Shown: one piece after another, positions 10,901 through 35,600 of the stretch
Numbering within the stretch: position 1 is the stretch's first letter
Layout: each line of letters opens with the position of its first letter
DNA from: Hygrocybe punicea
Taxonomy: Eukaryota; Basidiomycota; Agaricomycetes; Agaricales; Hygrophoraceae
Length of the DNA: 64,000 nt
Assembly: GCA_963556145.1 (NCBI GenBank)
Contig: OY744464.1
Span: forward strand, 7,725,508-7,789,507
Reading direction: 5' to 3'
The notes under the pieces: generated by a model
The model's database searches: none
What the model saw: only the letters and a program-made list of their open reading frames with translations
Told to the model about the DNA's origin: nothing
Program-made: the position numbers and the translations under genes

Positions 10901-11107
10901 TCCTCCGGAGTCTTCACACATGGCTAGGGAGAGCTTGAACACCGCAGTCCAAAAGCGAGGTATTGTCGCACAGATCGCAGGTCCTTTGTCAAGCAACTGA
11001 CACAGATAGAGCGACGCCAAGCCCGTATCCACCGGATAAAGCAAAAATATGCCGAAACTCACCAAGAGCAAGTTTCGAAAACACCTGAACCACACCATCA
11101 CATTGGA
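7921..11107 (+). pseudogene. Plavaka-type transposase, 5' part (split by the Helitron)
   Basis: This is the transposase of a Plavaka element, a fungal DNA transposon group allied to CMC/EnSpm. The ATG at 7921 opens MELDDLP, followed by a CxCGRTF...H...C zinc-finger-like segment and KSKKQLSGALAKAK. The exon from 8396 carries LPKQFRDILPQPPP, then VALMFWSDSTHLTSF and the catalytic-core region with KLWPCYLYFGNESKYRRC. Downstream are HRFYLRIFTYSADYPE, VVDLMHEFELGVWKS, YRQVPAFGRDNIRRF and FDGLLPEPHN. Several introns are evident (9457-9510 and 9741-9786, among others). Damage: TGA at 9296-9298 sits where the family has Arg. The donor after 10421 reads GA instead of GT, so the intron at 10422-10475 would be retained. 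The frame runs to PEPHHHIG and is then cut at base 11107 by the Helitron. The protein resumes at 31585. Confidence 0.9.
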
Positions 11108-11139
11108 CTAGTGGGGTGTGGGCCATTGCTTTGCATGGC
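11108..11139 (-). other. Helitron 3' terminus: hairpin plus CTAG
   Basis: Read on the minus strand, a stem GCCAT / ATGGC with an 8-base loop (11139-11122) is followed 10 bases later by CTAG (11111-11108) and then host T. This matches the Helitron rule of a short palindrome ~10-12 bases before CTRR. Confidence 0.85.
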
Positions 11140-11176
11140 ATGTTACTCATCCCTTCTTTTAGCAAGAGAACACATA

Positions 11177-14100
11177 TTAAGATTGAGCATATATAAACAG
11201 TACAGCATTATTACCATTACATGACAATAAATTAATATTTGAAAAGTCATCTATATCACCTTCATTAATACAAATTGATCTGGTTGATATACCATCATGA
11301 AACCATACCATACTGTTGATGAATATGTGGGCAGTAAAATGTGCATCACCAAAGTACACAATTCCTCTCAATGTGTAAGCAGTGGATATGTCATCAATTG
11401 ACAAGTTTATAACTTGACTAATTATTAAATTCTCAATAGAGTCAACTGTAAACATGATTAGAGGTGGAATTTTGTTAAATGCAATAAATTTAGTAATCTC
11501 TCCCCAACACAATTGACATTTGTGCCGTTGTCTATTAACTATGATTTGAGCAAGACATGTTGAGATTGTTCCAGAAAATGAATATGAACAATGAAAGATG
11601 GCGTCACATCTATCATTTTCCAGAATGGTTATGTTTTCACAATTGATACATTTAAGACAAGTTGAAGTCATTGGTTCATTTGCTTTCATTATATAATGGG
11701 CCAAATCACTTATGGCAATGCCAACTTGACCATAAGGAAATATTTCGGGTTTATCTTGATGCAATAAATGTCTGATTGTATTTCTAACTGTTTCTAAATC
11801 TGTTGTGTGATTCTTGGATCGTTTGAATCCTAAGCTCAAAATCTTTAATATTTCATTGATGCTATTGAATCTTTTTTTCCAACTTGATGGATCTTCATTC
11901 CATATTGCTAGTAATATTGTAAAGAGTGAATCATAAGCACAGCTCCAATCTTCCGCATCCCATATAAACCCTTTTGGTTCATTTAATTCAATAGTACTTG
12001 TTTTTCGTCTTTTTTTCACTATGGAAGATGAACTTACAACTTGTTGTAATTTTCGTTTTTTATTTTGCAATACATTGGCCATCGAATTTTTATGAGTGAC
12101 AGTGATTGGAACAGTTCCTTTTGCAGGAACAAAGTTGAGGTTTCTGAAATCTGCCTTTTGATTTTTGTTCATATGTTTAATTAATTGCCATGGAGAGGGC
12201 TGTGTTGTGTATTGATTTAGTTGCTCCGTGGCTTTCCATGCAATAGCATGATGAATGTTTTTTGGAATATATGACTTTCCTTTCCATTTTCTAAATTGAT
12301 CAATGATAGAATTTCGCTGATCTCCCTTGACATGGTCTGGTAAGAGTCCTTGATATTTCAGTTTGGTAATCTCATCAAGCAGTTCTAATTCTCTGAATTC
12401 CTGCCTGAGATATCCAGAAGCACCCCCAGTAATTACTTTAGGATCAAAGCCTTGCATGATGATAGTTCCTGCTGCAGAAGCACTTCTTGATAAGCAAGTA
12501 TAATAGGATTGGTGGTTTCTACAACTACTGAGGTCAACTACATTGTTAGGATGATAACGTCCTTGACATGCATAATCAGTCATTGCAAAATTAGGTAGTA
12601 CCAACACTTGTTCTCTTGACAAAGATATCACATCATCATTGGGTAATGAGCACATGGTGGAAGTGACATGTTTTGTAATCGGCACAACATTTTCAGGAAG
12701 TCCTTCTATGTTAATTTTTTTTGGAGGATTCAATAATCTGACAAATAAAGTGTCCAGTACAGTTTGTTGCTCAGGACCTATTGCACTCTGCCAACCCACA
12801 ACTATGCCCTCTGCTCCTTTGGTAATGCAGCACTCTGTTGCATCATTGTTCCTCAGCATCACTGGCATGCCTACACATAAGTCCAATCTTCCTGGTATAT
12901 GATCAGAGGATGATGCATGTGGTTGGCTCCAAAGTAGCTTTTGGAGTGAAGGTTCCAATATCTTTGTGTGTCGAATAGGATCCAAAATTGTTGACATGTG
13001 ATGAGATTTTCTTTTGCTATTGGAACTAGTAGGATCATTCCATCTGTCTATGGAATAGAATGATGTTAATGGTCTCCTATTTTCAGCAGCAAAACATTGA
13101 ATACCAAGTTCATAGATTTTGTCTTTTTGTGCATTCAATGCAGTTATAACTGACACATTCCTGAATTTCTTTTGGGCTAATTTTGGATCATTTGGACCTT
13201 TTCCTGCAACACGAGTACGAAGAAATGCAATATCTTTGGGAGTACATGCTTTGTATCTCATGTTTTCCAAAGCAAGCCTCAGTTGGACATCTTCTTCTGA
13301 CTGATTGGTTTGTCTCATATTTTCACGTAATATAACAACTGTTGTTATTTGATGCCAAAGAGCTTTGCCTATAGCCGCTTCCTGATTTGCTATAGTTTGA
13401 CTGGAATTGATTTGGACACCAACGGTTCCAGAGTATAAAGGAGCACCACTCATAGCTGGTGGAAGTTGGCCAAAATCTCCTGCAAATATCATATTAATGC
13501 CACCAAAGGGTTCATCATAAACACCACGTGCTTTTGCACACTGAGCACTGATTTTATACATATCTCTGCAAGATAACATTGACACCTCATCAATGAAAAT
13601 GTAATCCACACCATCAAGATTGGCACATACTTGTGCAAGGGAACAAGATGATCCTCCCTGATTAATTCCAAGAATGGAGTGATATGTGGATCCATTTACA
13701 AGGGCAGCAGCACCACCGGTTGGTGCAAGAACCACAAATCGATGATTTTCGTTGTGTTTACCAAAAAAACTAGTCAATGCTTTGATGACTTGTGATTTCC
13801 CTGTGCCTGCCATCCCACCAAGATACATGCGTAGCTTAGCAGAACCGTTAATCAAGGTAGAGTGATTCGCAATGATATGAAATGCTCTCTTTTGGTCAGT
13901 GTTCAACTTGTAATCATTGATAGTTACATCAATAAGATGACGATCAGCTCTGTTTGCAGGAATAAACATATGGTTGATGTATGCTGCATCCACTATCTTG
14001 ACATCATTATATTGAAAATTTCCCAATTTATTTATGGTTGCTGTGTTTGTTGGTAAATTTTTATTTCTGTCATCGATGATTTCCTTTTTCTTTGCAAGGA

Positions 14101-17100
14101 CTGCAGTTCTCCACAATTTTGCTGATTGTACTACAGGTGGTTCTATAGGTATCAACGGTCCTATATCTGGGTACCATCAATACAATCATCGAGCCACCCT
14201 GACCTTTTCAAAGTTCTTTCAGCTATCAGCATTTGATCTTTCCTTTTTTGTCCTTTTTGACCAAGTTTCAGGAGTATTTCCGTGTCATTATTGTCTTCAT
14301 CAATATTGTTGTTGAAGTCGTCGCCATTAAATGCAAATTCAGCATTGTGCATGTCATCCAGTTCATCAAGACCGTTTGAGGTCGCCCATGAATACCTTAT
14401 ATTTGCAGTATTATTCTTCTGACGTTTAGCAGAGAAATCATCTCTTGCATCCAAACATTCATACCGCAGACCAAAGTATTTCATGATCTCTAGTTCTTTT
14501 TTAGAAAACTCGTGGTCTATAAAAGCATTATCCCATGTTTGTAATTTACTTTTGAGTTCTTTGCCACTTCTCCATGGCTTGAAACAACAATAATATTCTC
14601 GATCACCATGGTCAGCCCTTGGCAAAGTGTTCGGAATAAAATTAGGAACTATGAAAGGATCATTCCCTTTCATTTTGGCATGGTGGGTAAGATATTGTGG
14701 ATGATTGGAATGTAAAGTATAATCATTTTCAAATTTTGTCAATTTATTAAGATCAACTTCATTTGTTTTATCAGCTATTTCTGTGCCTGCATGTCTATTC
14801 AAACTATCAGGTTTTGGAATTTCATCTATCTCCATGAGTATATCATTATCAACGACATCAGACAAGTTGTCATCACTGGAATAGTCAACATTAGTAGGTT
14901 CAGTGCAAGAGTCAGACAAATCATCACAGCCTAGATTGTCAAAAATTTGGTTTTGCACTGGTTCTTTTCTGGCCCTTTTGGTCTTTGTTTTGGTGCGTCT
15001 TTTCTTTGGTTCCATAGTGGCAAGACGTATCCAGTCATACAGTGATACATTATCATACAAGGCGGGTCTGAACATATAATTATTTACTTTGGAAAGTCCA
15101 ATGTATGCACCATTATTCTTACCAATAACAACCTTTTGTGCATTATTTTGGTCTTCACATATATTAGGAATTTCTTCATCAGACCATGCACTGATAACCT
15201 CTTTAACATAAGATCTCCAAAAGAATGGCACGAATTTATGACTGGTGTAGTGATCAGGATTTCCAAGGACATATAATGAAGCCATTGGAGCACCAATTTC
15301 CATTTTGGAGGTGAGTGAATTGACTATTTGTGTAAACAGCTTTCTGACTTTGTCTTTTCTTTTCAGGTCACCACCAATCATTTCGGAATTCTTATCAAAA
15401 ATACTTTTTATCACTTCAAAAATGCTATAGGTCTTCAAGGAGAATTTTGTAATATAATCTGTTATGTATGCAACTATGGCCTTTATAGCAGTACCTGATA
15501 ATAAGCTGGTCACATCAGAATTGCATCGTAGCATATATGTAACTTCAGGTGTCACCGTGTTCATCCAAGGTTCACCATGCTTGAGGTTGAGAGCACCAGT
15601 GTTAGGTTCTACAAAAGTTTGTTGAAAGATATCACGGGGAAATCGTCATTTACATTCACCTTTCGAATTCAGACAGTATGGCTTTTTTTTGCCATCATGC
15701 CTGTTATGTACATTTAATCGCAATAAAAGATCATCTACAACATCTTGAAACCTTTGCCACCATGTTGATCTTTTGTTGTGATATTGACAATTCATGGAAC
15801 AATTATATGATGGTGGATCTGGCATGACACATGTTGGTGGTTGATAGTCAGGTTTCGACATTGTCTGTTCCATTTTCTGTGATACCTCATCTTTAGAACC
15901 TGTCATGAATTGTCCTACACACAAACTTTCCAAATATTCCACTAATCTTTTCTGAAAGTCAGAATTTTCACCCATAATTTTGTCACGTATTTCCTGAGGT
16001 GTAAGGCATCTCTTTATCCACAACAGCATATGAAGATGCAAGGTAAGATGTCCTTGTTCCTCTACCGTTGCATAATAACCTGATGTGTTTCCATACAGGC
16101 CAGGATGAGATTCATTTATTCCTAATATATGTTTGATGAACATTTCAGTAGTAAAGTGAAAAAAGCGGGCTCCAGCAACTGGATTGTTTGCAATTAGTTT
16201 GTAACAATCCTGGGGTAGACGTAGTTTAGGATAAAACTTTTCTTTGTTGTCAGCATAATATAAGCATAGTGGGTGATTGATGTCTGCAGGTGCAAAAGTG
16301 ATAAACCAAGTCGGAGCACCAATATAGGATATCAGAGACCAAATCTCATTTCGCATGTATTTCTTGTTAGTAATTGAACCTTTGACCTGACCAGCTACGT
16401 GATCCAGATCAGAAATGAGTTTATAGCATGCTTTCTCTTCCGATGTATCTGGTTTGACTCTATCACCTCTAGATAATCTCTTAGAGAGGTCATCCAAAAC
16501 AGCTGTATTGATATTCATCAGGCGATCTGCAATATCGTTGAAATTATGTTTATTAGTCAACAAATATCCTCCGGTTGTACTGTCCTTGATTTGTTCTTGA
16601 TTGAATGCAATCAATGGAAAATAGGGATCGGTTTGAAATCTTTTGTCATTGTACATCAGGAGATGTCTTTTGTGCATCATATCACTGATGCTTAAAACAT
16701 CATTGTCTATGCTGCTAATACCACCCAAGCCATATGGAAATAGGCAGGGAAACATCATAGGATATAACTGAGGATTATTAAAGAACGATTCTGGATTTCT
16801 AGCATGGCTTATGGCAAGAACACCACCATGGTCATCTATCAAGTGCTTGGTCGCTCTAGCTATTAATGCCTTTGGACTTGTAATATCTAGATTTTCGCCA
16901 GTTACTCCACTAACAACAAAGGGACAAGGCCCATCTTCCACACCATCTTCCACTTCATTGTCAAATGCACTAGTGGCTTCTGGTTCCTTATTTGTGTCTG
17001 CTGGTCGATATGCAACCACAACAGGAATTCCATGATCTGGATATTGTGCTAGATTTTCATAGGAGATATCTAAATCATAGTAATCCATGTGATTCAATTT

Positions 17101-19546
17101 CAGCCATTCTAAAGCTGCAGAAACTCGCCTTCGGCAAACCAATAAAGGCGTTCGCTCCATGTCTTCTGGAGTTGGTCTGGCAGGACCAGTGAAAATAAAC
17201 GCTAGCACTTCATCAAGTTCTTTAATTGTTGGAGGCAACCGTTGATATATCTTTGGTGTTGGGTTTTGAAACATGATGGCATTTGCTTTCATTTTATGCA
17301 TCCCAGAGGAGACACGAACAATACATTTGTTGTGACGAACACGGGCAATCAAAAGTTGTTCAGCAAATGTTAGATTTTGAAGTTGTGCAGGAATTCTTCC
17401 CATCCAAAGTCCATTCACCAAAGCATATTTGGGAGTTTGGCCTTTATTCAGACTGAGCACACATGGTTTGCATATCCATTTACATGTGTCATCTAGCACT
17501 GGACCTTTGATATCCTCTATTGGATCAGAACAATGATATCGTTCACATCTTGTGATTCCCATATTGTCTCTACAGTCATTCATGGCTCCTTGAGACAGCA
17601 TGGGTCCTTGAGACAAAGGCCCCGGAAGACATCAATTTCATTGAATACTCCCTCGGAGTTGACCATAGTACATAGACAATCTTCATACCCACCTGTTGAT
17701 AAAATAATTGCAGTGCCTGATGCTTGTTAGGCTTGGCACCGTGCAGATTAGTGATGAAAATTCAATAAAATGTGCCATAACTCCCCAAATGACGACACCA
17801 ATGTCTGAAATTTGTGGTAGTTTTTGTCTCACACTTCATGCACACACATTTGTACAAAAAAAACAAACCGTCTGCACCCAAGAAATGTGTATTCTCTGCT
17901 CAATGGCCGGCACAGTGAGCGGCATGTCACGTCACACTTCCCAATTAGGACTGATGCACGCACAAATTGCTTAGGAAGTCACGCTGATGTGACACTGTCG
18001 CAAGGACCCAATTAGGGCCGATAAGCACTTTTTCTAAAGATCCTTTTCATCGTCTATGTTCCTCACCTCCGATAAGAATTCTGAAGCTCTCACTAGTAAT
18101 ATGACATATTTGAGGATGAGATCAGGTATTTAAATGAGGAAAAAAGGCTGTTTAATGCAAATTCCGAGGTGTAACTAAGTTTGGCTGTCTCAAGGATCCA
18201 TGAATGACTGTAGTTAATATTTTCAGATTAACCTTCGTCTTTGACAATAAAGACATGTTTTTCAATGCAACCAATTGACCACATACAGCACACCCACTTT
18301 CTTGGAAACATTCAGGTGATGTATCTCTGCACCAGTTGCTGATTATGGTTTCCTTCAATTCAATAGATGGAGGAGGAGGAGGAAATAATTGCTCATCTGA
18401 CTTGTCCAATTCTTCTTCCATTTGAGCCTGAGTTTCTCCTTTGCCGCACTCATATGTTTCTGCCATTTTTTGCCTCCTGTACCACTGTTTACACAGGTCT
18501 TTATGTGATTTAATATCATGCACATGAAAAATAGAAACATGAGTATCACAAGCTGAACAATTATGCCTCATTAATGCCACAGATAGATCTTGTCCATGTA
18601 ATCTTTGTAATGTCTTTGACAAATATATACCATGTATTGTTGTTATTTCACCAATATCCTTCACTGTCAAATTCGGCAGAAGTTCATGTAAAGGCATTTT
18701 AACACATGCATATGTTTTTCTATCTTCATATAAAGTGTTGGCTGTTTGTTCATCAATATGCCCCACATATTCGAATAATATGTCAGAATCATGGTTGATA
18801 TTATTAGATGGTAGCATAAAAGATTGAAGAAAGCTAAACTTGAATGTTGGTATTCGTTTACCACCACCAATGTAGTCATATCTATGAACGAAATTTATAT
18901 ATAAAGATTTAAACAAGTGTCCGAATAAATTCAAATTGAACACAATTATGTTTGAACGGCTATGCCGTATTATGAAACATAGTGTGGTCCACAGCAACGT
19001 TGCATGTGATAGAGAACTAGTAATACAATGAAATAAATATGTTTTGAAATCATGTCGTCTCAATAGCGATCGCATGAGCAATGCTTTGATCATTTTACAA
19101 CAACATTGGACAGTGATAGGTTTGAGAAGACAATACAAAGCAAAGAGATATTTAGGAGGTAAGAAATATGTTCTTGCATATTGAATAGAACATATTCGCA
19201 TTTTGAAGGTGCTATTTTTAAATGTAGTCCAAACAAATAATGGATCGACTGTCAAGTTATCTTTTGTTTCTTTTGTTATTCCAATGATCTTTACATATAG
19301 TGTTGCATTTATTTGCATCAATATTGTTGCATCGCCCTGATCTGGGGCCAACTCATGTTCTATGAGTTTTCTTTGAAAAACATCCAATTCTTGGGTCAAG
19401 GTCGATATCACAGGACAGGAAATTGGTTCAGGAGAGATATACATAAGTTTGTCTTGGCATAGTTGTGGAAATAATGTTGCATTTGCAAGGAAATATAGAT
19501 AAGTCAAACATGCAATGCAGACACGGATGATGTTGTGGGGATTCAT
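11177..19546 (-). pseudogene. Helitron Rep-helicase with C-terminal peptidase-like domain
   Basis: The gene reads leftward. The N-terminal part (ORF to 19546; conserved from about 18790) has C/H-rich segments such as SACDTHVSIFH and SGCAVCGQLV. The Rep part (15646-17571) includes ERTPLLVCRRRVSAALEWLK and the HUH motif HLTLHLHMLLW (HLH near 16030-16038). The next block (14161-15564) contains the two-tyrosine segment YITDYITK. The Pif1-type helicase block (11177-14155) has Walker A GGMAGTGKSQ, Walker B YIFIDEVSML and SRSASAAGTIIM. A C-terminal extension resembles ubiquitin-specific peptidases: WSCAYDSLFT (candidate Cys, near 11935) and DAHFTAHIF (candidate His, near 11330). Three lesions inactivate it: a MITE at 17573-18210, an in-frame TGA at 15646-15648, and a one-base frameshift near 14170 (between CIDG and YPDIGPLIP). 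The true start inside the first ORF is uncertain. Confidence 0.9.
17573..18210. mobile_element. 638-bp Tc1/mariner-type MITE inside the Helitron Rep gene
   Basis: Terminal inverted repeats begin CAGTCATTCATGG and extend ~27 bp (one mismatch: GGCTCC versus GGATCC). The element is flanked by TA at 17571-17572 and 18211-18212, the TA duplication typical of Tc1/mariner elements. Excising the element plus one TA joins the Rep frame exactly (NLKILT to RDNMGITRCERY). A subterminal direct repeat of GGxTCCTTGAGACA follows the left end. No transposase is encoded. Confidence 0.9.
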
Positions 19547-20634
19547 GAGGATTTGTGACAGTAAGAGGAAACACCGCCCATTTAACTAGTCAAGTGGTTC
19601 GGATCATGAATAACAATTAACACAATGGGATTGATCATATGACATTATATTATTTGTAAGCTTTTCCCAAAACACCATAAGGCGTGCCTGAATCTTTAGA
19701 AATCTGTGTTTACTTTTTTTATTCCATTCTATGTTCCTGTGACATGCCTTGATACAGGCCAAAAATGCATCTGTATCATGAATAGCTGCCTTATGATCTT
19801 ATTAGGGGTCTGGCTGACAAGACATTGATCAAACCAACTGAGAAGAACAATGGTACCCCCTTTTAAGATATTTTGTGGATTTAATCTTCAGAGTCTCAGT
19901 GATATTTATTTCTAGCTTGCTCAACAGACAAAACAGGTATTGAAGTTTAACAACCAGGCTGTTTGACAACTGTGCATATTTGACAATTGCTTGGTAATTC
20001 ATGGAAATTATCATTGTTCTTCATCCTTGTCAGAAATACATTGTCATTTTTATGGAGCTGTACGTATCATTCCCACACAAGTATACTGTATTATTCTGGT
20101 ACCAAAGAGTCATAGCTCCCCTTGGAGTGACAGTTATATCTTCCACTACAAGAGGGGGTTTTGTTACTCTTGTATCATTGTATCCTCATTTAATAGGTCC
20201 ATAAAGTTGGTGATTCTGGTTTCTTACATATATTCAATTTGAATTTTCATTAGCCCGAATGAGAGTCATCTCAGGTTGTCCTTCTCAAGTTGAGTGTGTA
20301 GGTGGTTGTACAACTGAACTGAAAGTAATGCATTCACCAGGATATATTTTAGACAAACAGATTTTCAGTCAACAAGATTGATGCCTTATGCTGTATCTAT
20401 GCTCACTATCATGCTCAATTCTTATGGTCATAGGACAGTAACACAAACCATTTTTAACGGAGCAAAAAGAAATACATATATAGAAACTGTACAAATGTTA
20501 ATAGTAGTGATGTATGAGGAGGACATTTGAGGGCACAGATTGTCACCAAGTTTCCAGAAATCAACGACTGGGATACAGTCTTTTTAGTCAAATATAATGA
20601 ATACTCCACAAAAGAAGGACTTACTCCTCCGAAA
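19547..20634. other. Helitron interior without a supported gene
   Basis: This AT-rich sequence lies between the Rep-helicase start and the end of gene A. Short frames on both strands lack recognisable motifs. It may hold the Rep-helicase promoter and gene A terminator. Confidence 0.35.
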
Positions 20635-22558
20635 TTAAGGCCCGGGATCAAGTTTGGATGTCGATGGCTTGGGAGATGAAGGCCTCGTTTGGCTTGGAGT
20701 AATGGAGAGTAGGATTTCGGGTGGAATGATGTTGCTCCAATCCACATCCATTGATGAAGCGCTGGGCTCTGCAGGGGTCGATGACTGGTGGCGTGACGAT
20801 GCACGCGTATTGGGACGGAATCCTAGGACATGGAGAAGATCAGAATTGGAATATATACAGCCTATGATGTAATGTTGAAATACATACCCGGAGTCGGAGA
20901 CTTCTTCGGTGGCTTCACCAGGTTGAGCTTCTCTACGATAATGCCCGCTTGCTCCGAAGCAACATCCAATTTCCTCCTCTTTGCCATCTCGCCATCCTCG
21001 TGACCATCGCTGGGAGACATCTTTTCAGGTTCGGGAGATCCGTCATTGTTGTCCATGGTTATATCATTATCAACATCCAACAACCCTGCCCACTCTGGTC
21101 CTAAAATGTCCAACTTCGCGGATTCCGGTGCCACAACATCTGGCTCGGGGGCGATGGGTGGCTTAATCTCCATTGTCAATTTCTCCGATGCCGATTGCCG
21201 GGTTGTGCGCAACGACCCAATTTCAACAGCGACTGCGAGATGTCAGTGCATTAATCATAACAAGGTGAGCAACGTACGTATTTGGGCCTTAGACCGCTTC
21301 TTCTTTACCGGGGCTACGTCCTCCTCCATCTTTATGTCGTCTATACATGAATAAATGTGTTGGATCATCGTTTTGATATTCGGAATTCAATAACTCACCC
21401 TCATCGTCGTCCTCGGCTTTGGACTTGATTGTGCGCTCTGTCATGATGAAGGGTTTGCATGTATGACAATCACAGACAATGAAAGTACTTACTGGACTTG
21501 GGCTTGGGCTTGGGCTTCTTTTTGTCCTTCTCGGACGAATTGTCTGCGCCACCTGAATATTCAATAGATCTATACACCACTATGGTTGAAAATTTGTACA
21601 AACCAGCAGAAGATGCCTTCTGTTTTTTGACCAATTTTGACTTGGCTTTGCCCTTGCCCTTGCCCTGGGCAACTGGCTCCTCTGCAAATGTATTATATCA
21701 TTAGCACAATCACACATGTAATTCTAGATCACACCTTCATCATCATCCGCCACATCAGAATCGACGAGGACACTATGTCCTTTACACCAAGCAATAACAT
21801 GACCGATGATCTCGAGCTTTGTGGCGTCCGGAAGCCCACCGAATGACCAATTTGCCAAGGTTCCGCTGTGCCATGCTGGCACGGATTTGTCATATTTTGC
21901 CCAATCTATGATGCCAGACGTGAGAATTCATTTGGCCATAAATACATATATACTTACCTAGATCCTTGGGCTTGATCTCGGTGTTCACAGCGCCATGTTG
22001 AATCAAAGCCGATGGAGAATGTTTCCCGACATAAAATTCTTTCAGGAGCCAATCATCGAAGATCTTGCTTCGCCAGTCACGGGTAACCTGGTTTGCCCGT
22101 TTCGCCACCAAGACTTCTGCCCAAATTTCGTCCATGATGGTGTCGGTATACTTGAGGTAATCCCGAAGTGAATCGGTCCCTTCCTTATCATTTTTGACGT
22201 AGTCCGGCGAGTAGTTGGGTGCCTTGTTGTATGCGATGGCTGCTGTCGCGTAGATGTACATATCCATTTGATAAATCAAGCGACGGAGCGGTTCCTCGTA
22301 TCGTTCGGGGATTTCGCGCCATAACTCACCTCGGGCGGTGGCATCGTGGGGGTGTGTCTTCAGTACATAGAGATTACGAGAAAATACGGGAATGGTGCCG
22401 GATTCCTTGTTGGGTGCCGGAATCTTGGGCGGGACCATGTACTGGATTTGGAAGATGCGATGTGGCTCCTGCAGCTTTTTGGGCGGCGCATCAGGCCAGT
22501 ACTTGAAGGCGGCGGGATTGACAGCGGGAGTCGAGGTTTTGACGACTGGCAAGGACAT
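20635..22558 (-). CDS. Passenger gene A: eight-exon, 514-residue unknown protein
   Basis: I do not recognise the family. Exons read leftward: 22558-21958, 21905-21735, 21681-21604, 21552-21493, 21437-21399, 21340-21278, 21232-20888 and 20822-20635. Every intron is GT-AG and every junction falls in the same phase, giving one uninterrupted frame of 515 codons including the stop. The start is the ATG of MSLPVVKTSTPAVNPAAF; an ORF extends upstream, but this ATG begins the compositionally normal part. Residues 1-200 look globular (YEEPLRRLIYQMDMYIYATA). The middle is Lys-rich (KGKGKAKSKLVKKQK; KKKPKPKPKS) and the tail acidic/Ser-Pro-rich, suggesting a nuclear or chromatin-bound protein. The intact structure, amid decayed neighbours, suggests it was functional until recently. 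It is divergent from gene B across the palindrome array. Confidence 0.75.
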
Positions 22559-22942
22559 GGTAGATGAAATAAAAGTTTTTTGGTCGACGTGTGAGGCGAT
22601 TTGAGAGCAAAAGAAAAGGGCGGATTTATTACTCAACGCTCCAGACTATGAATACGGATGTCACGACCACGTGACCAGATCAATCGCCACATGTTCAACC
22701 TCATGTTCGGCTTCTTTGCATGCATAAACAACAGATCTATTTATTTATGTTTTTGATGTGGCTCGAGCTTAGAAGTTGTCCAAAGCTAGTAATTGCACGC
22801 AGAAAACCGACATGTGCAGCGTATGGAATATTTTCCAGTTGGTAAGGCGATAAATCGAGTTAATTCGTTCGATGAATATTCACGGACTGGTCCGTTGACG
22901 GAAAAGCACAACAAGTCTGACTTGTTGGATGGATGTAGAAGG

Positions 22943-23476
22943 ACTAGATATACTACAACAAACATGTTGTTTGGTGTGTTCGGTCACTGGACATGTTTGG
23001 TGGATGTCAATGTACGACTAGATATACTACACCGAACACATCGAACATGTTCGATGTGTTTGGTGTAGTATATCTAGTAATATTGGTTCACCAACGTTGA
23101 CCGAACATCTCCACCGAACACACCAAACATGTTCGATGTGTTCAGTGTGGTATATCCGGTCACAACCGTTGGTTGACATCCACCAAACATCTCCACCGAA
23201 CACACCGAACATGTTCGATGTGTTCGGTGTAGTATATCTAGTAATATTGGTTCACCAACGTTGACCGAACATCTCCACCGAACACACCGAACATGTTCGA
23301 TGTGTTCGGTGTGGTATATCTAGTCACAACCGTTGGTTGACATCCACCGAACATCTCCACCGAACACACCGAACATGTTCGATGTGTTCGGTGTAGTATA
23401 TCTCCTCATAATGGTTGGTTGACATCCACCGAACATCTCCACCGAACACACCAAACACATCCGATCTGTTCGGTGG
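22943..23476. repeat. Six palindromes at exact 82-bp spacing (iteron-like array)
   Basis: A near-perfect ~32-bp palindrome, left half CCGAACACAYCGAACATG and right half its complement, begins at 23032, 23114, 23196, 23278, 23360 and 23442. Each step is 82 bp. Two spacer types alternate, one with TAGTAATATTGGTTCACC, the other with CACAACCGTTGGTTGACA, so the higher-order unit is 164 bp. A degenerate half-unit lies at 22943-23010. The array occupies the intergenic region between divergent genes A and B. Related motifs recur at 30313-30378. Confidence 0.9.
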
Positions 23477-23728
23477 ATATTTCTCTTTCAAGACATTTAA
23501 ATGATTCCATTGCTGATCAACGTGTTTGGCACGTGTTCGTTGTTTTATCATTGCCACTCTTGTCAGGTGACATAATTCCGACGTCTTATAATTAGAAGGT
23601 TTGTGGAATCGTCACCACCCGCTATCAACCACCCTGAAAGTAATCAATCATTAAGGTATTGATGTATTAATGATATCTGTGTCTGTTCCTCATACCACCC
23701 ATCCGAAATCCTGCCTAGGTCCACAAAC

Positions 23729-25551
23729 ATGCCATATAAGAAGGAACTTGGTTATGAACTTTGCATGCACATCTGCCCTGGTCGAAAATGCAACTCTCCA
23801 AAAACGAAATGTCTTTTGTGGAAGAAGGAAGGCAACTCCTGCCAAAGACATGTCAGATCCGCACACCAACATCCCAAATGCGTTTCGTCTGGAATTTGTC
23901 CGCAGTCGGTATGTCTTGGTCGCAACATACGTGAAAATTCGCAGGGTGTCCGCAATGCGACAGCCGTGGAACTTGATCTCCTTCCACGCAAAAGGCTATC
24001 ATCCAACTCTGAGATGGAAACATCATCTGACTGTGAAACGGAACCGCCAACCACCGTAAGCAACAATGAACGCCGTATAACCACATTAAGCAACAATGAC
24101 GGCCGTGTTTTCAAAATCCTTTTTATCCTTGACCCAACAACTCGTATCGCGAGCAAAGCCGCAGCCATTAACGATCTTGCATTCGTCACCACGACCATAT
24201 CCGACATCGAACTCGATACCATTGCCCATCTTGATGGTTACGTCCATATCATCAAGTCATACAAGAGTCGCTATTCAGCATGTATTTAAGAATGGGTAAT
24301 GTCTATTGTTTAATTTGTGGATTGTTGATACTGAAACGTATTTCACAACAAACAGGTTTATATCGGAATGCAACTACATCATGAGGATGGAGCCCGGCGC
24401 TTCAATGTCAAATACATATTTTGGCCCGAGTTCCTTCATGCAATACTTCGCCATCAAGACAAAGGCGATACGTGGCAAAAGTTTGCATCGGCAGATTGTG
24501 TATTTGGTGGTGTGGATATGGGAATGTCATACATGTAAGATTGACATCGCTTTAATTAATTCTGCTCCATTTTTGCTGCATTATACTGATGTCTTGACAG
24601 CGGTAACCAATACGGATTGACACTGGAAAATGTGTCGATTTTCATGACTGGCATGGACGAACTCTGTCGAACGGCACACATCTGGCCGCCTCCGAAGCAG
24701 ATGAACACGGTCCATTCAAAATGGATACAAAATCAAAACTTGCTTCATGTCGCTTTGAATGTAACGCATACCATACGCCCTCAAGCAAAATTATTAAATG
24801 ATGGCAACCAATTCCCACCGAATATTGTCTTGAAACGGACACACAGCGACACCGGTCATCACGTCCTATTACCTGGCGACGCCAAGCGAAATTGGGAATA
24901 CATGCGCAATAACTGTGAGGTTCCAGGTTCACGTTGGTTTGGGCAAACGTACATCGAACCACTGAGTAAGATGGGCGAATGGCGTGTGTTTCTAGTTGGT
25001 GGAAAGGTCGTGTATACGGTGCACACCCTGTACAACAAGGAAAGCAAGTCCTGGAAGTGGGATATCGTCTCAAGTTTCTATACCTTGGATGAGTTAAGGT
25101 GAGTGCCCTTCATTTTCACTTGTCATATCATATGCATGATTGTCTTAACTTTGTCAGAATATTTCAAACGCAGGGGACTCTATTGAAGACGGTGGCGTGC
25201 AATCCGGACAGGGGCGCCATTTCTATTCGAGAGCAAGGCAGAAACGAGTTCTTCGACTTTGTCCAAAAGACCTACGAAGGGCTTTATGCGATAGAGTCCA
25301 ATATGGTTGGTGGAAAACCATCGATGAGTGTTTTTTGCCGTATGGACATATCGCTCATTGTGGATTCCAAAACGGATACTGTGTCCTATTTCGTGAACGA
25401 GGTGGAACGTTATCACACATGCAGCCTCTGGTCGAACATGAAGTCAGGTCCGAAATCCGTTCGAGCACCCATTGGCTCATTAGCAGACACTTTTGCAGGG
25501 GTTTTCTATAAATGGTTGATTGACATCAAAGGTCCATACTCATATTTGTAA
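23729..25551 (+). CDS. Passenger gene B: ATP-grasp-like protein
   Basis: The 3' half is clear. An exon from 24356 encodes VYIGMQLHHEDGARRFN up to VFGGVDMGMSY. A GTAAG donor after 24535 and a GACAG acceptor at ~24601 lead to the exon ending at 25100. The last exon, after the intron ending near 25158, stops at 25551. The segment NIVLKRTHSDTGHHV, then WFGQTYIEPLSKMGEWRVF, LVGGKVVYTVHT, and finally MDISLIVD...YFVNEVER matches the nucleotide- and metal-binding order of ATP-grasp enzymes (carboxylate-amine/thiol ligases). The N-terminal region from the ATG at 23729 is Cys/His-rich (MHICPGRKCNSPKTKC) and may bind zinc, but its joins to the ATP-grasp exons are unresolved. Substrate unknown. It converges with gene C and diverges from gene A. 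Confidence 0.55.
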
Positions 25552-25638
25552 TATTATCTGTACAGTCAATGGATCGGTTCGCGTTTATTTCACAAAACAG
25601 ACATAAGATACAAATATAAATGATGCTAAGTGGAGCAA

Positions 25639-27686
25639 TCATTTCGGCACTCCCAAGACCATGACCCATTGCACATTGAGTGAAATGCTCTTCATCATGT
25701 CATCTACACGCTTGAATGTATTGATGGTGTGTCCAACAACGACACAGGATCCTGCAGGGATATTGTGCGGGAAGATGGGTAGTTGCTGGAGCGATATGAG
25801 AGTGGACATGAAGTCCGCTTTGACTTTGCGTGCATCATAGATGGGCACTGACAACACATACTTAAGATATCAATTTATATTAGACGACCGGATGCTTACC
25901 AATATCGTAAAATGATAGAGCGGCCTTATGATAAGATGGAGTGGGTCGACGAGTGAATGGACTAAGTTGTACATTTTTGGATGTCGATGCCTCTATGAAA
26001 ATCGATTAGGAATTACAACTAAAAATGATTAATGCACAAACTGGGAGATGTATCCATTCCACTTGCTGTGGTCATTGAGAAGGACACATAGTCCTTATAC
26101 AGTTGGGCCCGAAATTCGGACTCGCGAATCACCATTCCAATAGCACTGACATATCGCTCCCATTCCCCTTGAAGTAGTGCACCCTGTATAACCTTGACCG
26201 GCTTTGTATTGCCACCAATCTTGGGCTCATCGAGAAAGCAGGACTCCACTATGATGACCGATGTAAAGATCGTCGGCATTCCACCTCCGACTGCATGAAA
26301 GAAGTTGCGACCAAATGCACCAGTGGAGATATGGGCAGGGTTATCACGAGAGAGATTAGAGTACCTCCCAGATCTATCAAATGTAATGGCGGAAACCAAT
26401 AACCTATATTATATCCAATGAATCGACCAAATTGACCTCAAATTGCTGTTCAAATAACGTACTTTCTGTTGATCTTGTAGATGTCAGTGATGATATCACT
26501 GAACTGTGGGTTGCCATTCCCAATTGCACTGGACCAGGATACCATTGCTGCTGCCCTGAATGGTTATGAGTAAATGACAAGGGTATAAATGCAATTGCAT
26601 ACTTGATATTGACACAGTCTTGGTAGGTGTCAACAAGTTGAGGATCCCTCGTGCCAATATCGGACTCATCAACGTTCGGAGATGGTAAGCTAGATTCACG
26701 ACATCTACATCAAACACCACGGTGTAATAAGATCCAACACACCTGGTGATCTGCGTCAGTGCATAGGTCAGATCTCCTTCATCGCCACTGGAGCCTTTAT
26801 CATCGTCAGTATCATCGAGCATGATGGCCTTCGTGGACTTCGACTTCTTGGATGGAGTATTAGAAACGCTGTTACAATTAATGAATGAGAATATTCATAT
26901 CGGCACGTAAAATACACACGAAATTGGCTTATCGGGGTTCTTCATCAAGGCTACTTTGCGACGATGCCTAAACAGTCAAACAATTTGTTTGAACAAATGG
27001 ATATGTCTATGATAACCGAACAACTCACTTAGAACCGTAATCCTCTTCCTCTTCCTCTTCCTCCTCTTCCTCACCGTCTCGTGATTGATTAGATGCAGCT
27101 TTCAATTTCTTGGCGGGGGAAGGCGTTTTACTATAGATAACCTGTCAATGATGAGACAATACCTATGAAAAATATTTACACATTGTCGTCATTGTCGGTG
27201 ACATTGGGAGATGACATTTGATGTTTCTTTCCACTGTAACAGATTGATATCATGGTGGATACATTTGATATTGAAACACTAACACGTCTTTAACGTTGTG
27301 AAACTTGACGGAATGCCTAGGAGGATATTGATATTTGTTAACTCATATTGGATAACAATGATATGTGATTATAGATACCTTGTGAGCGTTGACGGTGCCA
27401 TTACACTGCCAGTGCTTTGAATACTGACGGCATCATCATTAGCATCGGACAAAGCCACACTGTCCATTGGTCAAAAATAGATAACGATTAAAACGATGAC
27501 ACATACATATCATCATCAGCCCAAGTCTTGATGACCTTCTTCCGCTTCTCGATTGTTGCAGAAGGCCGTCTTTAGTGCATGCAATAGAAACTTCAGTTAT
27601 ACCGAGTAAAATAGGGATGCATACATGGTGGCCTTGGATTTTGCTTTCGAGTTTGATTTCGTGGCGGTGGACTTCTTGGGAGGCAT
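25639..27686 (-). CDS. Passenger gene C: many-exon nuclear-type protein, unknown
   Basis: I do not recognise a named family. From the ATG at 27686 (MPPKKSTATKSNSKAK) to the TGA at 25639-25641, about thirteen short exons join in phase across GT-AG introns with no stop. The N-terminal half is basic and acidic by turns: KRKKVIKTWADDD, KTPSPAKKLKAASNQ, then a run of ten Glu before DYGSK. The C-terminal half is globular: LLVSAITFDRSGRYSNLSRD, FTSVIIVESCFLDEPK, GEWERYVSAIGMVIRESEF. It finishes with IPAGSCVVVGHTINTF and LNVQWVMVLGVPK. The end segment has the alternating pattern of a beta-barrel such as an OB fold, but this is inference. It starts divergently from gene D and converges on gene B with an ~85-bp gap. 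Confidence 0.7.
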
Positions 27687-28348
27687 TGGAGAGCGGTAAA
27701 AGTTGATGGAATAGTGGATATCATCTCCACTCATGCTTTAAATCACTCAAAAACAATAAGCTATGAATTTAAGATGAATCGGTGAATCCAAAACTTCAAC
27801 AATAACATCAGAGGATCCACCATTGGCACATGCTCATATACCAAACGAGGCTTCTTGGGCCATGTACTCCATGCAAAGCGCAAAGGTATGCATGAAAAAT
27901 GGATGACTGTCCACATGATATTCGCCACAAGTTTATACTGGTAGATTTCATGAATTGTTGACAAATTCAATTAAAGTTAGGAATGGAGACTAAACAAAAA
28001 GGGGTATTCATAAAACAAAAATGCATAATGCCAAATTAAGAAACATGGGGTATACTAACAGATATTGATGCATAATGGATAGGGGCTAATTTTAATGCTG
28101 TGCACACATATACTGTGATGCAGAATTAATGCGGAAAAGCTGGAGTACATGCTTGACTATACCATATCCAAACCAGACAGCTGACAACCAACATTATGTG
28201 GTGCATTTGAAAGACATGGAAAGGATCCGTATTATGCAAAATGACGCAAACTTCAATATTGAAGAATGCAATACAAAAACAAAAGCAAAACGGATCCTGA
28301 AAGCTATCATCACATGGACATCAAAAGCCAATATGGATATGATCGGTG

Positions 28349-29604
28349 ATGGCGGAAGATATAATCCATGAAGTGGACGAAATTGTGCCACGCAATATAC
28401 ATCTCACCACTGCTTTGTACGTGATGGACAACTATTACAACTTCAAGGGTGCATGTTAGCAATATCCACCATATATATACTGGCTAGTATTTGACACCAA
28501 ATTGACAGCTGAACATCTGCAGGAAATCATATCTGCACGCTTAGACGATGATGAAAGTCAGCTTGCGAAGGCCACAAACGTAAGTCATTGGATTTGAAAA
28601 GGTATATCATATTGACCGCATTGCCAGATTGCAAATGTCAATATTGTGCATGTTGACTCTCCAAATTGCTGGAAGTTTACACCTCCAACCAATGATGAAT
28701 CCGAACATCAAGAATTGGTATTAAGTTTGCAAGCGATTTTGGTGGCGAAAGATCTTCCACCCATAACAACCAGGTATGTGCTAAATTCGTATCAATTCCT
28801 TGAATACCATTCTGATGAATCACTGCAATAGTCAACCAGAACGCCGAACGCCCTTCATACGTCAAAGCATAGTCGTAACTGGCCTTGATACAACGGGCTT
28901 TCAATCCTATATCGATAACCTTCGGATTCTGCACCAGAAACTGGCTCGTCAATTTCCTGACAAAGCAATGCAAGCTTTTACGCCTTCTACATACATGGAT
29001 TACATGGCACTCGCAATAGGAACCCGATATTTCACTGATCGCCGACATGACAACACTTCCTCTCACATTCCATTCGAGTATGTCATCGATCCAAAAGGCA
29101 TATTAACCTCACTTGCGAATTCCCGCTACTTTCATGGCCAGGACAATTGCGTACTTTATTACAAGTTGAAGTCTGATAGAAATCGACATTGGTGAGTGAC
29201 GATGAATTGGGATCACATCCCTACTGATGGAAATATTTATTAGCTTCATTCCAACAAACCCAACTTGCTTTAGAATCGGTGATATAGTGGAGGTTCAGTT
29301 TACAATATCGGCAGTTCCAGTAAAGAAGGATAAATTCAAGATGATTCTGAATCTACGGTCATTGGCACTGGTAGACAGTGACTTCACAGAGGTAACACTT
29401 TAATACATCAAGAATTAAACGAATACTGATGTATATTCTCAGGAAGCAACTATGATTCGCAACAAGACAGCTTTGCCTACACCAACTACACAGCCCAGAA
29501 TAGCCATCAAACGGCATGTTGGGTATGTGGAAGAGGGTAATGATGCAGAGGGTGTTGTGGAAACAAGGCGACGCTTCTATAATATGAATATAGACCGATG
29601 CTAA
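28349..29604 (+). pseudogene. Passenger gene D: unknown protein with one nonsense codon
   Basis: The frame starts with an ATG at 28349 (MAEDIIHEVDEIVPRNIHLT). TAG at 28457-28459 then interrupts it, probably in place of CAG, and coding continues (QYPPYIYWLVFDTKL without the stop). Later exons join through GT-AG introns near 28580-28626, 28773-28830, 29193-29242 and 29393-29442. They encode WKFTPPTNDESEHQELV, FIRQSIVVTGLDTTGFQSY, YMDYMALAIGTRYFTDRR, then IGDIVEVQFTISAVPVKK and FKMILNLRSLALVD. The stop is at 29602-29604. The last strands (GDIVEVQFTISAVP...KMILNLRSLALV) look like a beta-barrel, perhaps OB-like; this is inference. It may be related in fold to the end of gene C. Confidence 0.55.
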
Positions 29605-29644
29605 TGTATAATATTGTATGTGTACTCAACCCGTTGATATGTTA

Positions 29645-30175
29645 CAGCTGTTTTGCTATCTGATGGCAGCAACTGCACCTTTTTGAATCAATTGAGAAAT
29701 TTGGACTTGGTAGAATTTTGGGTGCTGTGTTTTATATCTCATGAAATACTATTTGGATTAAGATGGTTATACAGGGAAAGTTGTACTATGTCTTGAGGAC
29801 TATCTACGCCTGTAATTACATTTGAACAATATTTAGGATATAGTGAGTTGTTGATGAAATAAAAGGTAGACCAGTACTTTTTGACGCCCAAAATGATACT
29901 GTCAAATTATGACATCGAAAGAGCTCATATGAAGAAGACTGGAGGGAGAAGGTTGTTCATCTTTTCAAGGCCTAGAAGTACATATACCATATTCTTCTCT
30001 ATTTTTGTCCTTTGAGCCGTCATTGCATCTGTACTATGTTTGTCTGTCACTAGGCTCGAAATACAACCAGAATCATAAACTGTATAACCATCTTGATCCA
30101 AGCAGTATTTCATGAGATACAAAACACAGCACCCAAAATTCTACCAAGTCCAAATTTCTCAATGTGCCTTTTTGC
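29645..30175. mobile_element. Decayed copy of a TA-flanked foldback MITE
   Basis: The sequence starts CAGCTGTTTTGC after TA (29643-29644) and aligns along its left arm with the foldback MITE at 37412-38184 (shared GGAAAGTTGTACTAT, GTAATTACATTTG, CTAGAAGTACATATACC). A partial right arm (30078-30160) is inverted relative to 29695-29780. The rest of the right arm is missing, so this copy is asymmetric and older than its relative. Confidence 0.75.
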
Positions 30176-31584
30176 TGAAAAGATGAGAATGAGCTATTGA
30201 AAATCCATTATCTACCTATAATCCAGATTTAATGTTTGCATATTCTCTTTGTATCACCACTGGATAGCTAACTATATCCAATGTTCAATGTGTACTGATC
30301 ACATATGACAATAGTAACCTGAACATATTGACCGAACACATTGACCGAACACACCGAACATGTCCAATATGTTCGGTTTGTGGTCCATGAAACTGAATTA
30401 CAATTCATTGTACAAATTCAATCAAACTACCTTTACTTCGCATATGTGATGCATAACCTTTTGTTCAAAGACGTGTCATATTAACTGGACGAAATCTGCA
30501 GGTACAACAAGCATATTTACTCCTTTATATCTAAATTGATGACGAAATTCACTGTTGTACTGAGAAGCCTATGTTGCTATGTTCCTGCATTGATACCATT
30601 GGATTGTATCTTGGCCCAACCTTCACTTCTTCCCATCCTGCCATAAATATGATGCTTTGCTATTTAATAATTGCTTTCCAATCATATTATTTTGTTCTGG
30701 CATGATTGGAGCTTCTCTTGAACTAATTATGTTCCTTGTCCTTGTGTCTGGATCTTGAATCATTATGCAGTTGACTGCATTTATTGTACTATTTTCGTGT
30801 CCTTTGATGAAACATCAACAAATTATACACCTCACCCTTATGAGCCCATTCAATGAATACATTGAAACAGCATCTGGGGTACCAATGTGTGAACTCCATA
30901 GTTTCTCAATGTTGATAGCTCTGCTTGCACTTTCTCTGCTTCAATATGGGATGTCAAATATGGCACATAATGCACATCCAACAACTGTCCAGACTTTTAT
31001 TTCTGCTATTATTTGTGCAATTGCAATGCCCCGGATTCAGGTAGGGACATCTGCAAAACACTTTGTGCCGAAAAATGATGAACCCGCCGGTTAAACCAGT
31101 GTTAAACCTGTTCCTTGTGATTCCAATGTACATAGCTGTTATATGTATCTGTAAACAAAGATATCATATCTGGTTCATTCAGTCTATATTGCACTGGCAA
31201 TTCCTCAGAATACAGCAGGGATACTAGTTGGACAATACAGAACTCTCAGTACTGTTCAGACAGGTTTTCAACTCATCCATATGTCATAATGCACATTACA
31301 CCAACAAAGAATACGATTATTGTCATGAAGTCGACTTAGCAGTGGACTACACTTTCCCAACTTGGCACCTTTGATCTGGTGACCTTATTGTTCTTGCTCA
31401 TTTGAGACAACAAATTCTCACGGTTACAAAGTCAGCAGTCACACGGTTTCAAATTTATTCACAGGGCTTCAAAATTGTTCCCACAGTTTGCAACAATTGT
31501 TCCCACGGCTTGGCAAATTAGAGTCTGACCCTGAGTTGAAAAATCCACCGTATAGAACAATTCCATTATAGGGACTCGTAACGT
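30176..31584. other. 5' end region of the Helitron, no gene
   Basis: No supported gene. At 30313-30378 there is a cluster of the motif TTGACCGAACACA and CACCGAACATGT, matching the palindrome array at 23032-23476. This supports both places belonging to one element. The minus-strand 5' terminus is placed at 31584. Confidence 0.45.
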
Positions 31585-32665: not shown

Positions 32666-35600
32666 GGAGGTAGAGCAGACCCAATGACCTGCCTTTTGCA
32701 GAACAAGATCCCATCAGATCAATAACCCCAAAATAGATACAAGATCTTAGATGATCTCGAACGTTCCCAAATAAAAATAATGAAAATAAACTCAGCTTTC
32801 AAGCCTCGCGCAACACCCGCCTTCTCTGCCTCAAACCGCCCCCCAGCGAGCACTACCCACACGTGCACAAGCAGGGACCACATCACTCAAACTTGGTCAA
32901 CGTTGAGAATGGGCAAACACGAGAGCATGGCAGGCCAGTTAGCTTTGAATGCAATGGATACAAAAAAATAGCTGTGTTTAGACGCAGATGCGTTCCTAGA
33001 CTTAGGAGCATAGTATTAATGTAAAGGAGGACAGTAATAAAAAATTTAATGTTGACTTGACACAACAACTAATGGCTTCAAGATCCAAAATCTCGCGTTC
33101 TGGCAAGCCCCGTCCTGCACAGTACCAAGTGCGTTTTGCCAACTACACCCCTGAACAAGCCGCAGGTGAAAGAACTTCACTGGGTGCACGCAGCCAAGCA
33201 GCACGTCTCTATAATGAGCATCTCACCCTTAATCATGCTCAGATGACCTACATCACCAACCTTTACGCATCTAATACAGTCGCAGATTTTATTTATACTG
33301 TGGATGAACAGAGTCAATCCGATGTGAAGACACTATTGGTCACTCATGGTCTTGATGTGGATGCACACGAGAGCCTGGAAAGCCGATGGAGTATCAAATG
33401 GGAATGGACAGGTGGGAAGAGTCTTGGTTCTCAAAAGCGTGTCTCGTTGCAATGGTCAGTACTTATAAAATCATGCTTCAAGCTTATTGGAACTTTTGTC
33501 AGTGATTGTGGATATGACCATGCTCAGGATGGTGTGAAGCACTGACATAATCCCTTCGAGTTCACGGGGTGTATGGCACATGTGGAGATTACCACGGTCA
33601 TGGCCACCCAACATGTTTTACGTGTACGCGGTTATTTGGAACATAATGATGCGTGTAAGGAAGTAGTACTTATGCAAAAGCCTGATATGCCCCTCCATCC
33701 CTCTGTCCAGGCTGTAGCTCTTGCCCAGTTGCGAGATGGGGTGTCAATGAATGATATTCAAGCCAAAAATTGAAAGCTTTACAAAGCTCATGGGTACAAA
33801 GACCAACCGAACAATCTACAGCCAACTCAGGGGGGCAATTACCGCTGGCTTCTCCAACAGTCTGATTTTCGGACAGTGTACCAGCAATAACACCGTCTTC
33901 TTGGAGTAAAAGTGGAAGAGGCACCTCACATCAATATTAATTTGTGGCTTGACCCATTGTCCCCTGCATTCAATCAAATTCTTGCCAATGCAGTCTTTCA
34001 CTATTCAGCACGAATGACAAAAGAGGAACGATTCCAAGTCTGTATAGCTACAAAGGAGATGAGAGAGGCTTCGTGGAAGTATGGGCACCAATCTCAAATC
34101 ATATTGGATGGAACCTTTGGCATATGTGACAAAAAGATTCTACTCTTCATTCTCATGGGTCTCGATGAAGAATGTAGAGGAGTTCCTCTTGCATTCCTCC
34201 TTTTTTCAGCACCCTCTGGGAACCAACAGACGTCCTCAGGCTATAATACCAAAATAATCACACATCTTCTCCAGAAGTGGAAGCTTTCACTCGGCACTTC
34301 CAGAGACGGCCAGGAATTTCTCGCACTTGTAGCAATCACTGATACCGACCTTATGGAAAGAGGAGCCCTTCTCCGGGTTTTCCCACATATCTGACTCTTG
34401 ATCTGTAAATTCCACCTCCGTCAGTCCTGGAGAAACCACCGAAACAAGGAGATAAAAGGAAAATCACCACCTTTCACAAGAATTCATCTGCGGATGGGTC
34501 AATTGGAAGATGCTCTTGTGAGGACAACAAATATTGAGATAGCTCGAGCGCTCATTCAGGCAGAAAGACTAAATTTGGATGGGAAAAACAAGCATCTCAA
34601 ACATTGGAGGAGAGGTGGAAGAAGGCTACGAATTGATGTGTTGATCAATGCGTTGGTAACACAGATTGTACCTGCTATTTTTGAGCAGCGGGAGATGGAG
34701 AGAGCTGAGAAAAAAAGAATTACAGAGCGAATACAAACACTCCCAGGTGGTTTCAACATCCTTTCTCAGCCTGGTACCCGCTCACTCCCTCAGCTCTACC
34801 TGTATCTGGAATCTGACAAACGCCGAGATCAAGCCGCCCAAGGAATTTTAGATGGTCATCAAATCAGCGCACCTGATTTCATCCCTGAAAACCAAGTGCT
34901 TCGGTTTTCCTGCTATTCAGCACTGGCTCTTGAAAACGAAGCTAACCCAACGGTCTACACCATTTGGCTCAGTCTGAGTGGAATGGGTCATTGTACATGC
35001 CCTGACTTTGCTCAATGTAATGGCGCTTGTAAGCACCTTCGTGCTGCCTTCCTTCGTTTGCATGAACTCCATTCAAAGGGGCTCAAGATACCCAAAGTCC
35101 CTATTCCTACCTCAGAGTTTGAGGCTCGCACTTGTGGTTTCACATTAGCAGCATGTGCTCTCCTATTTTCAGCTTCACTCCCACCCTCGCCAACTTCGAC
35201 ACCCACCCCAATGCCACATCACCACTTGCTCCAGCAGTAGTGGAAGGCCCAGTGCTTAGGGCAGCTCGTGTTATCAAAGGGTTGTTTACTGTAGGTGACT
35301 TTGAGGATACCCAGCGCAAGTCATGTGAAGACCCTGACGATACATCTACAAGTCCTAATGCCCCTGCCGACATCAATGATGATGAGGACTCCAACTCCGA
35401 AAGCTGCAGCCTGACCTCCAGTAATGCCAGTGATGAATTTGATTTCACGATACCACCTGCCACGAGCAAGGCCGCATTGGATGAACAAGCAATCACCAGA
35501 GTGTTCCACGAGCTTGCAAATGCTGCGCCAAAACTCGGCACCCTTGCGGTCTTCTTGAAAGGGACAAGCTTAAACACGGAGAACATTTCACGCACCGTTC

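Follow-up and report, generated by a model that had tools for sequence, protein, structure and literature searches.

Four intron-containing genes look like a long-standing accessory module of a high-copy Helitron family in Hygrocybe punicea

We analysed a 64-kb stretch of the Hygrocybe punicea genome (hereafter the window; C6:7725508-7789507 of a 92.2-Mb, 42-contig assembly), in which a Helitron carrying a Rep-helicase and four multi-exon genes, named A to D, occupies the gap separating the two halves of one host gene. The locus raises the question of whether these four genes were recently taken up from the host or belong to the element itself. The block appears to be a decayed copy of a high-copy Helitron family of ~19.5 kb, and its four multi-exon genes a long-standing accessory module, a reading to which we give a probability of roughly three in four. 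On this view, the intron-containing genes would have been in the Helitron for long, would be common to its copies and would be maintained by selection, which does not resemble a recent accidental capture. All coordinates are those of the window unless a contig is named.

Borders and genomic copies of the Helitron

The complete Helitron spans 11108..31581 (20,474 bp) on the minus strand, as delimited by its other copies and by an empty site, its right end being 5' TTACGAG... and its left end ...CTAG 3'. The joined flanks, a 211-nt query consisting of window 11,000-11,107 and 103 bases from 31,582, match C35:6077660-6077870 across all 211 bases at 98% identity and without a gap. The host frame runs through this join (...PEPHHHIG|RSETLFEH...) and no target duplication is present, in agreement with an initial annotation that had placed a Helitron inside a split gene. 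The left edge of that split, 11,108, is retained, whereas the right edge, put at 31,584, lies 3 bp too far: codon 31,582-31,584 (plus strand, Arg) is present in the uninterrupted gene copy and is therefore host sequence outside the element. Similarity ends after 31,581 or 31,582 in 35 of 39 other scored 5' ends and reaches 31,584 in the other 4. Helitrons typically insert between A and T without duplicating their target. The join in the window is G^T, not A^T as first proposed; of 20 copies, 16 have A and 4 have G as the host base immediately 5' of the element, and another set of 7 has A in 3, G in 3 and T in 1. The interrupted gene had initially been called a Plavaka transposase; the flank open reading frames (ORFs) submitted to Pfam gave no match to a Plavaka model.

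The left edge had also been recognized as a Helitron 3' end, and this identification holds. The 3' terminus (11108..11147, minus strand) has the CTRR-type end of Helitrons, here CTAG, with a hairpin just upstream (-7.0 kcal/mol for the last 40 nt, with RNA parameters), and the host base that follows is T in all 11 distinct copies read (locus L004 not among them). As in other Helitrons, Rep and a PIF1-like helicase are found in a single protein.

A 41-mer from the 3' terminus has 136 exact copies in the genome and a 38-mer from the 5' terminus (31542..31581, minus strand, TTACGAGTCCC...) has 130, reversed-pattern controls giving 0. Queries from the 3' end, the middle and the 5' end each returned at least 40 matches, all but one of full or near full length with 99-100% identity. 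Among the 83 3' ends listed (contigs C1-C33), 40 can be paired with a 5' end that is likewise oriented and no more than 40 kb away, and 43 are unpaired; the spacing is 18.1-20.5 kb in 25 pairs, 12.6 kb in one and 21.3-39.6 kb in 14, each 3' end being paired with the nearest of 81 listed 5' ends (that of the window included), by which some pairs are possibly wrong. Aligned over their full length, six complete copies are 99.0-99.5% identical and each contains genes A to D, which are thus cargo of the family. The presumed rolling-circle transposon of ~20 kb to which this block belongs is present at well over 100 genomic places.

Ten complete copies were aligned (the window, C1, C33, C34, C39, C6, C7, C1b, C2b and C6b), picked from the match lists with both ends known and so not a random sample; loci E_C2 and E_C36, interrupted or rearranged, were left out of the alignments. 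Three arrangements can be told apart among the ten full copies and a further, interrupted one: type 1 in seven of the ten, the window among them, type 2 in the remaining three (C1b, C2b and C6b), and type 3 in the interrupted copy. Pairwise differences among six type-1 copies amount to 0.5-1.0% over the entire element, C7 being the seventh copy of this type. All seven reach the same 5' end and a 5' end near 19.5-20.6 kb was seen in none of them, which sustains the initial delimitation of a single element of ~20.5 kb; the further copies with both ends that it called for are those counted above (136 and 130 exact termini, six copies aligned over their full length).

The Rep-helicase region (11177..19585, minus strand) was assigned from ORFs and Pfam, the window ORFs matching Helitron_like_N (1.2e-31), DUF6570 (3e-42) and PIF1 (3.2e-21). 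Copy C1 harbors it as an intronless frame of 2,423 codons from stop to stop, or 2,339 from the first Met, in which occur HLHMLLW and GTGKS, which we take to be Rep (HUH) and PIF1-like helicase motifs. A full-length frame is present in two of the ten aligned copies, C1 and C6. The Rep-helicase reported initially is thus present, though broken in the window, where it is split by an insertion of ~640 bp resembling a miniature inverted-repeat transposable element (17571..18213, no strand assigned; terminal inverted repeats of ~30 bp, CAGTCATTCATGG..., and an apparent TA duplication), besides other lesions. This insertion is unique to the window copy and absent from the other nine full copies aligned.

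The four genes and their diverged counterparts

From the 5' end, at the right in the window, the order is D (+), C (-), B (+), a palindrome array, A (-) and the Rep-helicase (-). The gene models were made by hand on the consensus from splice signals and open frames, and are predicted, not transcript-based; those of a splice-scoring script were dropped, having over-split the genes. Gene D (28424..29604, plus strand) has 6 exons and 303 amino acids (aa) in a revised model, gene C (25639..27686, minus strand) 13 exons and 463 aa, gene B (23729..25551, plus strand) 4 exons and 545 aa in intact copies, and gene A (20635..22558, minus strand) 8 exons and 514 aa, as anticipated in the description of the block as carrying four multi-exon genes. 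A first model of gene D, starting from the Met at 28,349, was replaced, since type 3 retains only the later Met; this first model underlies the open and broken counts, the young-copy ratios, and the Pfam and homologue searches given here.

Genes A and C, initially described as the two intact ones, are indeed both open in the window, but D is open too, making three, and B is cut short by a stop at codon 187 of 546. Over the ten aligned full copies, A is open in nine and B in five. C is open in 6/7 and D in 7/7 type-1 copies, while C' and D', the corresponding genes of type 2, are each open in 2/3.

The type-3 copy (L061-L063) preserves the order and strands of type 1 throughout: it carries D', C', B' and A', followed by the initial 125 residues of Rep'. 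It is a single copy, read from its 5' end into Rep', where another repeat interrupts it. All 27 intron positions compared between the hand-made models of types 1 and 3 coincide (D 5/5, C 12/12, B 3/3, A 7/7), although one D' intron of type 3 would begin with GC; intron identity was not used as evidence, because the gapped alignment of short introns raises it. At the protein level, identity between the two types is 62-67% for B (360/536), C (280/450) and D (204/303), and 85% for A (439/514). Their 5' ends are ~86-88% alike over ~220 bp. The repeat that cuts the type-3 copy (C33:3151618 onward, L062) is itself high-copy, with matches often paired ~13.5 kb apart, and probably represents the long terminal repeats of a large retrotransposon.

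The proportion of synonymous differences (pS) between types 1 and 3 is saturated, at 0.73 in B, 0.74 in C and 0.77 in D, and that of nonsynonymous differences (pN) is 0.20, 0.24 and 0.19, respectively. The resulting pN/pS is 0.27 in B (bootstrap 0.23-0.32), 0.32 in C (0.27-0.37) and 0.24 in D (0.19-0.31), values that exceed the true ratio because pS is saturated. Saturated pS together with low pN thus points to purifying selection on these three genes. Gene A has a pS of 0.27, a pN of 0.07 and a dN/dS of 0.21, leaving out the codon of a premature stop in type-3 A; all these selection ratios come from the single type-1/type-3 pair. The corresponding ratios within a set of six young copies (A 0.43, B 0.48, C 0.39, D 1.43, Rep 0.57) were given no weight as a sign of selection, because 198 of the 355 variants among these copies are CpG transitions and reflect decay after insertion. 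Such a share would be expected of methylated copies.

None of A, B, C and D reached a Pfam cut-off, and no TET/JBP domain was found in them by Pfam. Gene B has a weak similarity to ATP-grasp proteins, with matches below cut-off for B itself (GSH-S_ATP, 0.036) and for its homologues P0002 (GSH-S_ATP, 0.0038) and P0001 (RimK, 0.018), and may on this similarity code for an ATP-grasp enzyme; a PDB sequence search with a profile of the B homologues gave no match. Two homologues of B were found (45-48% identity) and a single, metagenomic one of A (42%). Homologues of gene D are present in Piloderma croceum (47%, in a cluster of 19), Infundibulicybe gibba (34%) and one metagenome (50%).

Motif searches revealed further relatives within the genome. 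The genome contains 197 matches to a degenerate D motif (FRxGDIVEVQ) and 142 to a B motif (KRTHSD[TA]G), against 0 in controls. By hand count, the 100 D matches listed of 197 comprise 54 of type 1, 38 type-3-like, 3 of a fourth form and 5 others, and the 100 B matches listed of 142 comprise 68 of type 1, 22 type-3-like, 8 of the fourth form and 2 others. The one locus of the fourth form that was read (L064) has D and B on the same strand ~2.5 kb apart, with D upstream, and gene C was not found there within the 5 kb read. Five other D-like loci (L065-L069) are 29-57% identical over the matched pieces, suggesting that gene D is part of a wider family.

Origin of the module and of the chimeric copies

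The alternative that survives best, although we hold it to be unlikely, is that D-C-B was taken separately by types 1 and 3 from diverged host loci, the selection having acted in the host. The far greater divergence of D, C and B compared with A and Rep agrees with it, as does the occurrence of D-like genes elsewhere in the genome and in other fungi. The two types nevertheless share gene order, strands and the placement of the genes between Rep and the similar 5' end, and no host cluster was found, though the searches could not see past the family's many copies. Likewise, no near-identical host donor gene was seen among the motif matches listed (100 of 197 for D and 100 of 142 for B), which belong mostly to the family.

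It is less probable still that one Helitron lately took four neighbouring host genes, which would be intact for lack of time. Host-gene capture is a known habit of Helitrons, and the small distances among type-1 copies indicate that the last amplification is young, but a second Helitron lineage has a diverged form of the module, whose introns are shared and whose synonymous differences are saturated, and this largely refutes the scenario. The initial annotation had accounted for the intact genes by selection or very recent capture: the first fits the ratios of B, C and D and of A, whereas the second finds no support, versions of all four genes being present in 10/10 full copies and in the type-3 copy. 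Finally, a mis-assembly or the adjoining of two unrelated insertions can be dismissed, given the identical end-to-end structure of six aligned copies with differing flanks and the gapless empty site.

Several observations count against a maintained accessory module. Gene B is broken in five of the ten full copies and Rep in eight, and the ratio of 1.43 for D among young copies lends no support by itself. In addition, the divergence of B, C and D between types 1 and 3 far exceeds that of A and the start of Rep, an inequality which implies modules with partly separate histories. At the 5' end, six of seven copies have TTACGAG and the seventh has TTATGAG, instead of the TC typical of Helitrons (T[C/G] in HELPO); this is a departure from the usual end only, not from the mechanism.

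Exchange between such modules is seen in type 2, a chimera of types 3 and 1. Relative to type 1, its Rep is 99% identical, the surroundings of gene B 97-99% and the region of gene A about 92%, while the first ~360 bp are 80% identical and the rest of the 5.8 kb on the 5' side, carrying the diverged C' and D', only 66-69% in alignable stretches. The junction lies within the last exon of B' on the type-3 side and within that of C on the type-1 side, at positions that do not correspond and have 2 bp (GC) in common, leaving type 2 with D' and C', remnants of B' and of C, and B, A and Rep, in that order. A homologous crossover does not explain such a non-matching junction, and type 2 would be explained by read-through or end joining between neighbouring Helitrons. 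With a query from the end of the 5' module, 40 of 78 candidates were scored, of which 18 end at base 246 of 251 and 22 reach base 251; longer matches rank higher, and the proportion is no measure of frequency. This split pointed to a parental lineage, type 3, and the 22 scored places indicate that type 2 was amplified.

Under the reading of a long-standing accessory module, the Rep-helicase would copy the entire module in one piece, starting at the 5' TTACGAG end and finishing at the 3' hairpin and CTAG end. In the case of type 2, a strand initiated at the 5' end of a type-3 element would have been joined out of register to a type-1 body, terminated at the type-1 3' end and afterwards amplified. 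Because selection kept them in more than one lineage, genes A to D would help the element itself, whether by anti-silencing, replication or gene control. We also lean, with less assurance, towards the broader view that this clade of basidiomycete Helitrons is a multi-gene mobile element with whole, spliced accessory genes that are selected and serve the element, and whose lineages trade 5' modules by out-of-register joins, giving rise to chimeras that amplify.

Known Helitrons and further features

HELPO1 of Pleurotus ostreatus comprises elements of 1.5 to 13.7 kb, 37 of them validated in all, and the genes described in that study are located either downstream of RepHel or within a single non-autonomous copy (PMC4289320). 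Both are basidiomycete Helitrons with a Rep-helicase, a 3' hairpin and a CTRR end; unlike HELPO1 as described there, the present family is ~19.5 kb long, has more than 130 ends, and carries diverged versions of four spliced genes, placed upstream of Rep. Fungal transposons including Helitrons have been found to encode a TET/JBP dioxygenase, an accessory gene thought to aid transposon spread (PMC12730594). The likeness lies in an accessory gene kept by a transposon, but genes A to D are four different genes in which Pfam detects no such domain.

In a report on Fusarium oxysporum, composite and chimeric Helitrons arise by self-insertion and combine 5' termini, the duplicated 5' pieces being typically shorter than 200 bp (PMC5148889); the exchange in the present family also combines 5' ends but involves ~5.7 kb and two whole genes. 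According to a 2019 review, Helitrons reach 39 kb in maize and 14 kb in fungi, and their cargo consists of gene fragments, the capture of a full-length host gene being exceptionally rare (PMC6431247). The present family resembles the gene-bearing Helitrons reviewed there in its large size and multi-gene cargo, and differs from them in having whole genes instead of fragments and ~19.5 kb against a fungal maximum of 14 kb. No element with the D-C-B-A module was found in the open-licence literature.

This family combines more than 130 end copies with four complete genes containing introns, a module in two or more diverged versions and a clear chimera, and so makes it tractable to ask by sequence comparison whether Helitrons keep their own helper genes and how these are exchanged. 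If all ~130 copies were full length, although many ends are unpaired, they would make up ~2.7% of the genome, and automatic annotation would tally this Helitron cargo as hundreds of host genes.

Repeats are also present inside the element. The palindrome array noted initially was confirmed at 22942..23485 (no strand assigned), between the divergent genes A and B, with a spacing of 82 bp and a number of units that differs from copy to copy; the 82-bp palindrome unit could be a shared promoter or a Rep-binding site. A single unit related to it occurs close to the 5' end (30,328-30,380). An inverted repeat of 84 nt is found near this end as well (29,691-29,774 and 30,080-30,163; 95% complementary, 305 nt apart), and also in the type-1 copies compared. 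Elsewhere, a rearranged copy (L027-L028, C36:1413000-1426000) consists of two Helitron pieces lying back to back in opposite orientation.

Beside the empty site (L029, C35:6077660 region), an open frame of 247 codons resembles a mariner/IS630-type transposase. In the window, an ORF with an Spt5-NGN domain (E 1.6e-10) is present at 4,270-5,265 on the plus strand. Pieces of a MULE/SWIM-type transposase adjoin the right flank of the Helitron (33,891-35,240, plus strand), with SWIM above the cut-off and MULE below it. Finally, a piece of a Copia-type reverse transcriptase (RVT_2, 8.1e-23) is found at 54,273-55,208 on the minus strand.

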